Positions 3,880 to 6,329 of a DNA stretch of 45,940 bases are shown piece after piece. Positions within the stretch are counted from its first letter, which is position 1. Each line of letters opens with the position of its first letter. The position numbers and the translations under genes are program-made. The notes beneath the pieces are model-generated. The model worked only from the letters and a program-made list of their open reading frames with translations, made no database searches and had not been told where the DNA came from. The DNA is taken from positions 1 to 45,940 of the forward strand of contig PCCK01000044.1 in the NCBI GenBank assembly GCA_002731695.1, given 5' to 3'. The stretch comes from Porticoccaceae bacterium (GTDB lineage Bacteria; Pseudomonadota; Gammaproteobacteria; Pseudomonadales; Porticoccaceae).

Positions 3880-4507
3880 TTATCTCACCCCTTTGCAACC
3901 TCTAACTTTCTGCCTTACCATCCGGATCCTTGGAATTATTTTGATCGTTTTGGTTTTTGGAATTTGTGCGCGCACACTATCAAGGAAGAGGTCGAGTTTG
4001 CGTTGTAAGAGATCATCCGCTCTCGCTAGTGGATCCTTAGATGGATTGTATCCAAGGAGTCGATTTTATTTTGCAACTCTTGTAGTGATGTGTCTTTTAT
4101 ATATCGCTTACATATCTAGGTCTTGCCTTTCGGACACAGTAATTGCATATTTGTCTAATGCTGGGGTGAGGACAAATTTTAATGATTCCGGGGTTTCGAT
4201 CAACAATGTCGGTAAGGTGAAGCGCCGCGGGGGACCTTCCAGTTTGTAATGAGGCTCTCGATGGAGATCAGTTGGGGTTTACGGCATATGCCATTATAAA
4301 TCGCATCCCAGATGCGGCGAGCCTCTCGATTTTAGGCGTTTTGAAAAAGTCACTTCGAGATTGCGGTACGCTTGGGTCATAGTTGACAGAAGTTGTCCCC
4401 CAACCTTGGTCGTCCGAGAGGATGAGTACAAAGTTTAGGAATTGCCCGGTAGCCCACAAATTGCCTACAAAAAAGCAGCCACTCACAAAAAAAAGGCACG
4501 AGACCAC
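3880..4507 (-). pseudogene. degraded type I sulfatase (signal peptide and N-terminus intact; TGA at the catalytic Cys position; frameshift; C-terminal remnant)
   Basis: Minus-strand translation: MVSCLFFVSGCFF...NFVLILSDDQGWGTT...KTPKIERLAASGMRFIMAYAVNPN [TGA 4270-4268] SPSRASLQTGRSPAALHLTDIVDRNPG, then a change of frame near 4188 (..LKFVLTPALDKYAITVSE..), two more in-frame stops, and a C-terminus-like stretch LLQRKLDLFLDSVRAQIPKTK. Confidence 0.8.
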
Positions 4508-4563: not shown

Positions 4564-6231
4564 TCATTGCAACACAGTTATTTCAGAGAGCCTAATCTCT
4601 TCTTCCCATCTTGCCATAGCTTTTTTTCGTTGCGCTTCTAAACCGGGAATGAGTTCTCTGCCGGCGGGCAGGACTTTACCCTCGGGATAATCGGCCCCGA
4701 ATGCGCTCCGGCTAACAGATAAGCTCCATTGATCATATGCGTCTCTAAGACGTTTAGCCACCTCAGGATACAGTTCTATCAGGTTTTGCTGTTCGCTCGG
4801 GTCTCCAATAACGTTATATAATTCAAAGGATTTAGTAACCCATGCCCCGTCTACTGTTTCTGCATTTTGTATGAGCTTCCAGTCGTTATCCAACCACATT
4901 CTCCCTTGGTTGGCCCTAAATCCCATGGGTTTATCTCTTCTTCTGGGTTCGTTTTCAAAAACTTGCGCTAGCGATATACCGTCGTGAACTTCATTGATGG
5001 ATTGTGGATCAAGGTTTGCGATATCAATCAATGTGGGAAAGATATCGACAGTCCCTGATGGGAAGTTTGATACTCTCGGCTTTATACCAGCCGGCCACTC
5101 AATTACCGTTGGTACGCGAAGACCTCCCTCATAAAAGTCTTTCTTGAATCCGCGGAGGTGTCCCGTACTATCAGGATCCACACCCCTATAACATCCATGT
5201 AGTGTCCGCGCCTGGAGACTCGTCAGATCTGGATCAATCTCGTCACTGCAGTTAGAGGGGTACTCCACGGTTACGCCGATATTTGGACCTTTTATAGAAG
5301 CATCTTTTGCTTTCATTTTTGTCTCTGGCAAAACTTTAGCATCAATATTGGCGGTTCCACCGTTATCGCTGGTGAACCAGATTAGCGTATTTTCTGCGAT
5401 CCTAAGGTCTCTTAGGCCTCGCTTAAGGCTACCAATTGATCGATCCATTGCAACGATTTCGCCATGCATGTTGGCTGATGTGCGGTCAACTTTTCCTAAA
5501 AAGGGTGCTATATCGGAATCAGAAGCTGTCCAAGGGCCGTGGGGTGCAGAATACCAGATGACTATAAAGAACGGTTCACCCTCGTCAAGCTCGTTCTCAA
5601 TAAATTTTATGGCCTCAGAGACGATAACCTCAGAGCCATCCCCAACAAACTGCTCTCTTTTCCCGTTTCGGCTTAACTCGAATGTTCCACCATCAACTTT
5701 GTGTTTATCGAAGCCGGTGTGATTACTCAGCCAATAATCGAACCCCAGCTCTCCCGGATTATGTGGGTCAGATCCGGGTAGTGGATGGGTGGTATCATCA
5801 TTGGCTTGACCATTGAGGTGCCACTTTCCGAAGTGGGCCGTTACATAGCCAGCATTTCTGAAGGCCGTGGAGAGCGTCTTTTCCTGTTTGTTGATGTAAC
5901 TTCCAACTCGGAAAGCACCCGTTCGGTCGTTTGTTCTGCCGGTCAATACAGAGGCTCTAGTTGGTGTGCAGCTTGGTGCTCCCGCATAAAACCGGTCCAT
6001 CCTGAGACCATTACGAGCCATAGCATCAAGGTTAGGTGTCTTCATGAGAGGGTGACCGTAGTACCCCGTTTGGGCCCAGCCCATGTCATCGGCCATCAGG
6101 AGGATCACGTTGGGTTTCGTTTTGGCGACTTCACAGCTCGAAACTGCGAGCATGCAGCAGATCAAAATAACTGCTAGGGTGGCCGCTTCAAAAGCTGATC
6201 TTTTTATTAATAAGTTATTTTTAACTTTCAT
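4564..6231 (-). CDS. sulfatase (arylsulfatase-type, predicted lipoprotein)
   Basis: KPNVILLMADDMGWAQTGYYGHPLMKTPNLDAMARNGLRMDRFYAGAPSCTPTRASVLTGR with C-T-P-T-R formylglycine motif; lipobox LAVSSC. The ORF extends to a TTG at 6267; ATG at 6231 preferred. Confidence 0.93.
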   Translation of the reverse strand: MKVKNNLLIKRSAFEAATLAVILICCMLAVSSCEVAKTKPNVILLMADDMGWAQTGYYGHPLMKTPNLDAMARNGLRMDRFYAGAPSCTPTRASVLTGRTNDRTGAFRVGSYINKQEKTLSTAFRNAGYVTAHFGKWHLNGQANDDTTHPLPGSDPHNPGELGFDYWLSNHTGFDKHKVDGGTFELSRNGKREQFVGDGSEVIVSEAIKFIENELDEGEPFFIVIWYSAPHGPWTASDSDIAPFLGKVDRTSANMHGEIVAMDRSIGSLKRGLRDLRIAENTLIWFTSDNGGTANIDAKVLPETKMKAKDASIKGPNIGVTVEYPSNCSDEIDPDLTSLQARTLHGCYRGVDPDSTGHLRGFKKDFYEGGLRVPTVIEWPAGIKPRVSNFPSGTVDIFPTLIDIANLDPQSINEVHDGISLAQVFENEPRRRDKPMGFRANQGRMWLDNDWKLIQNAETVDGAWVTKSFELYNVIGDPSEQQNLIELYPEVAKRLRDAYDQWSLSVSRSAFGADYPEGKVLPAGRELIPGLEAQRKKAMARWEEEIRLSEITVLQ

Positions 6232-6329
6232 AAGGTGTCCAGCCCTTTTTTCTTTTAAGACTATCAATCTTGCGGTGAAGCGGATAGCAGGTCTGTTAGA
6301 CTATTTCACCCATAAACTAGTGTGAAGTA

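Follow-up and report, generated by a model that had tools for sequence, protein, structure and literature searches.

The closest described relatives of the locus studied here are type I sulfatases encoded by syntenic orthologs in three genomes of the same genus: Porticoccaceae AG-907-E05 (G003; locus L093), Cellvibrionales UBA1854 (G010; L094) and Porticoccaceae SP293 (G006; L095). Their N-termini are 75–77% identical in amino acids to our sulfatase relic, and they have its neighbouring sulfatase and its active-site motif in common. Unlike the relic, all three have TGT at the active-site codon; the AG-907-E05 and UBA1854 genes are full length, and the SP293 gene is interrupted by runs of N. 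The relic also resembles bacterial pseudogenes made by nonsense mutation and deletion, with which it shares a premature stop, a frameshift, an internal deletion and lost constraint, the sole difference being that its stop happens to lie on the catalytic codon. With bacterial selenoproteins it shares an in-frame TGA at a catalytic Cys position and a genome that encodes the selenocysteine (Sec) machinery, but it lacks their intact frame, SECIS-like fold, conserved TGA and constraint. In the passages found in an open-access paper (PMC4807772), sulfatases and selenoproteins are separate topics. We conclude that the relic is an ordinary sulfatase pseudogene.

The window (the whole stretch of 45,940 nucleotides that was analysed) contains the following features:

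4268..4507, minus strand: N-terminal sulfatase remnant, through the TGA inclusive; 75–82% amino acid identity to the syntenic orthologs in G003, G006, G010 and G012
4268..4270, minus strand: TGA in place of the formylglycine-cysteine codon, which is TGC in G012 and TGT in G010, G003 and G006
4140..4267, minus strand: continuation in the same frame past the TGA (SPSRASLQTGRSPAALHLTDIVDRNPG...), homologous to the orthologs
4138..4139, minus strand: 10 bp lost here in comparison with G012 and G010, which shifts the frame
4053..4054, minus strand: point at which 1,057 bp, the middle part of the gene, have been deleted; 2730-3786 of L053 (G012:C24) is absent from the window
3900..4053, minus strand: what is left of the pseudogene's 3' part, with homology to the relic in G012 (87% nucleotide identity over 205 bases)
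4564..6267, minus strand: intact sulfatase of 567 a.a. next to the relic, its active-site Cys encoded by TGC; the relatives have conserved it in the same place

The minus-strand frame 4507..4268, open for 79 a.a. from a GTG at 4507, closes with the TGA at 4270-4268, downstream of which the same frame reads on as SPSRASLQTGRSPAALHLTDIVDRNPG. An earlier sequence-only reading had recognized here a sulfatase motif lacking only its Cys, with the TGA exactly at the catalytic cysteine codon, and both points are borne out. When the TGA is taken as a residue, a stretch of 106 a.a. matches the Pfam Sulfatase family (PF00884, profile positions 2–68, E=3.7e-10), which establishes homology to the sulfatase domain. 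Alignment to the intact orthologs places the TGA at the C of C-x-P-S-R, the formylglycine-cysteine codon; the motif C/S-x-P/A-S/T-R, with Cys or Ser for formylglycine, is therefore broken in the window copy by TGA instead of Cys.

Similarity to the orthologs stays in the frame of the TGA to about 4140, switches frame after the 10 missing bp and then continues to 4054. The frame thus does break, as the sequence-only reading had said, but about 128 bases past the TGA and not near 4188. Its suspicion that the middle of the gene had been deleted before a C-terminus-like stretch proved right: 1,057 bp are absent at 4054/4053 relative to the nearest relative (G012), the flanks on both sides align to it at 94%, and 4053 to about 3900 is the true 3' end of the gene, joined straight onto the junction. 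The two deletions leave no open frame that spans a complete sulfatase domain (about 500 a.a.), and these disabling lesions are missing from the intact orthologs.

Among 58 related genomes searched, four, all of the same genus, have the syntenic gene, each time beside the same intact sulfatase, and the DNA of the orthologs aligns with the window starting at the end of this neighbour. The codon equivalent to the TGA encodes Cys in four out of four syntenic orthologs: TGC in G012 and TGT in UBA1854, AG-907-E05 and SP293. The UBA1854 and AG-907-E05 orthologs are intact (534 and 535 a.a., respectively), and the N runs inside the SP293 ortholog belong to its assembly. Among homologs from named genomes (these three and 26 more distant ones) 29 out of 29 have TGT or TGC, so that Cys stands at this position in every other copy examined. 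The G012 copy (90% DNA identity to the window) is full length yet contains eight in-frame stops, one of them, 44 residues ahead of the Cys, a TGA that has replaced the TGG of a Trp; the window and G012 relics bear different lesions. G012 also has a second copy of the relic's gene, with a TAG, at a contig end (L051:4-243, G012:C35), and a further sulfatase relic lies near the AG-907-E05 ortholog (L050:5326-5565, G003:C8), in which TGA stands in place of a Trp of its paralog.

Selective constraint has been lost in the relic. Between the window and G012 copies dN/dS is 0.95, an estimate limited to 93 codons, in which the differences number 6.5 (synonymous) and 18.5 (nonsynonymous). The adjacent sulfatase, which served as the control for constraint, gives 0.26 in this genome pair, and the values among the AG-907-E05, SP293 and UBA1854 orthologs are 0.06–0.10. 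Because of this difference, decay is probably older than the split between the window and G012 lineages, and a beginning before the split is the most likely course.

Taken together, the locus is almost certainly a sulfatase pseudogene that lost its function and then decayed independently in the window and G012 lineages. We infer the following order of lesions. A type I (formylglycine) sulfatase gene of this marine Porticoccaceae genus would have lost its function, probably before the two lineages parted, and the two copies would then have decayed separately: the window lineage would have acquired the TGA in place of its catalytic Cys codon (TGC or TGT), the 10-bp deletion and the 1,057-bp deletion, and the G012 lineage a different set of stops. 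The TGA is a chance nonsense mutation in a gene already dead, because close relatives keep Cys there and there is no sign of selective maintenance. Its position had been called striking. In the 93 homologous codons 22–26 single-base changes create a stop (7–10 of them a TGA) and exactly one of these falls on the Cys codon, i.e. about 4%, a figure to be read with the fact that the locus was selected for this very coincidence; the stop on the exact catalytic codon is only a modest coincidence.

An alternative is a working sulfatase in which the TGA is read as selenocysteine at the formylglycine position. The TGA lies precisely on the nucleophile codon, and selA, selB, selD and two tRNA-Sec genes (anticodon TCA) are all present in the genome. 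The sequence-only reading had asked for the sel genes to be looked up; they were, and since they are present their absence cannot serve as an argument against Sec, which is excluded by the ortholog comparison and not by missing sel genes. The two deletions disrupt the frame, so that it is not intact on both sides of the TGA, and the TGA is conserved in none of the relatives examined. As had been noted by eye, there is no convincing SECIS: 3' of the TGA, shuffled sequences fold on average more stably than the native one (minimum free energy, z=+1.4 over 46 nt and +0.8 over 60 nt; folding against shuffles, not a dedicated SECIS predictor), and the locus has no Rfam match. No second sulfatase with TGA at the motif was found in 112 genomes of the family (four out of four pattern matches inspected) or among the 30 matches inspected, out of 48, from 392 genomes of the order, in which the window is the sole true sulfatase; the other TGA-pattern loci inspected (29 + 3) have no sulfatase flank. 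With TGN in the same pattern, the motif is matched 60 times in 14 genomes of the genus, and TGA occurs in the window copy alone. The pattern catches only canonical CxPSRA...TG motifs, sulfatases with variant motifs being outside its coverage (nine of the 60 matches are in the window's own genome, which has 36 matches to PF00884). With the TGT/TGC orthologs, the dN/dS near 1, the lack of a SECIS-like fold and the lack of a second TGA case, the preference already given to a nonsense change in a pseudogene over Sec is upheld; the intact UBA1854 and AG-907-E05 genes with TGT are the very outcome that was to rule Sec out. The absent middle of the gene and the Cys of the orthologs refute a functional Sec sulfatase at this locus, and the residual chance we leave it is minute. 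That the lineage formerly had a selenocysteine sulfatase of which the window copy is a remnant is likewise exceedingly improbable.

It is very unlikely that the gene is intact and that the TGA and the deletions are errors of sequencing or assembly. The genome is a draft of 108 contigs with an estimated contamination of 5%, and the TGA itself may be a base error, but the deletions break the gene regardless. Besides the 94% alignment of both deletion flanks to G012, the near-neutral substitution pattern extends across the remnant, which a few base errors would not produce, and the nearest relative is dead as well. Hardly any credence is due to the remaining 79-codon frame as a new small protein under selection: the open frame from GTG 4507 exists, but its ending at this TGA is unique to the window (G012 has an earlier TGA in the same frame) and dN/dS is 0.95. 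Reading the locus as a decayed sulfatase gene disposes of a misleading candidate for a selenocysteine sulfatase and has little import beyond annotation. It also shows that a stop at a catalytic cysteine, even where the genome encodes a complete Sec machinery, is no evidence for Sec unless orthologs are compared and constraint is tested.

Several observations were made along the way. In G009 (L052:3250-4680, G009:C14) a sulfatase gene has a TGA directly before its active-site Cys and two TAG stops downstream, and is otherwise open; it was rejected as a second Sec-like case because of the two TAG stops, and looks like a young pseudogene. Formate dehydrogenase was considered as a user of Sec in the window's genome, with no match above the cut-off and no TGA within the matches. 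The 36 PF00884 matches are a high sulfatase load for a genome of 2.35 Mb (G000). Its selA and selB genes are found in two cassettes, each with a tRNA-Sec (anticodon TCA): on contig C102 (L048, G000:C102:1-7421) three sulfatase genes follow the tRNA-Sec, and on contig C1 (L049, G000:C1:1-8361) a phage-type integrase does. selC is commonly used as an integration site, which the integrase on C1 fits. The second cassette could be explained by contamination (5%); SP293 likewise has two selA-selB-tRNA-Sec cassettes (C10 and C59).
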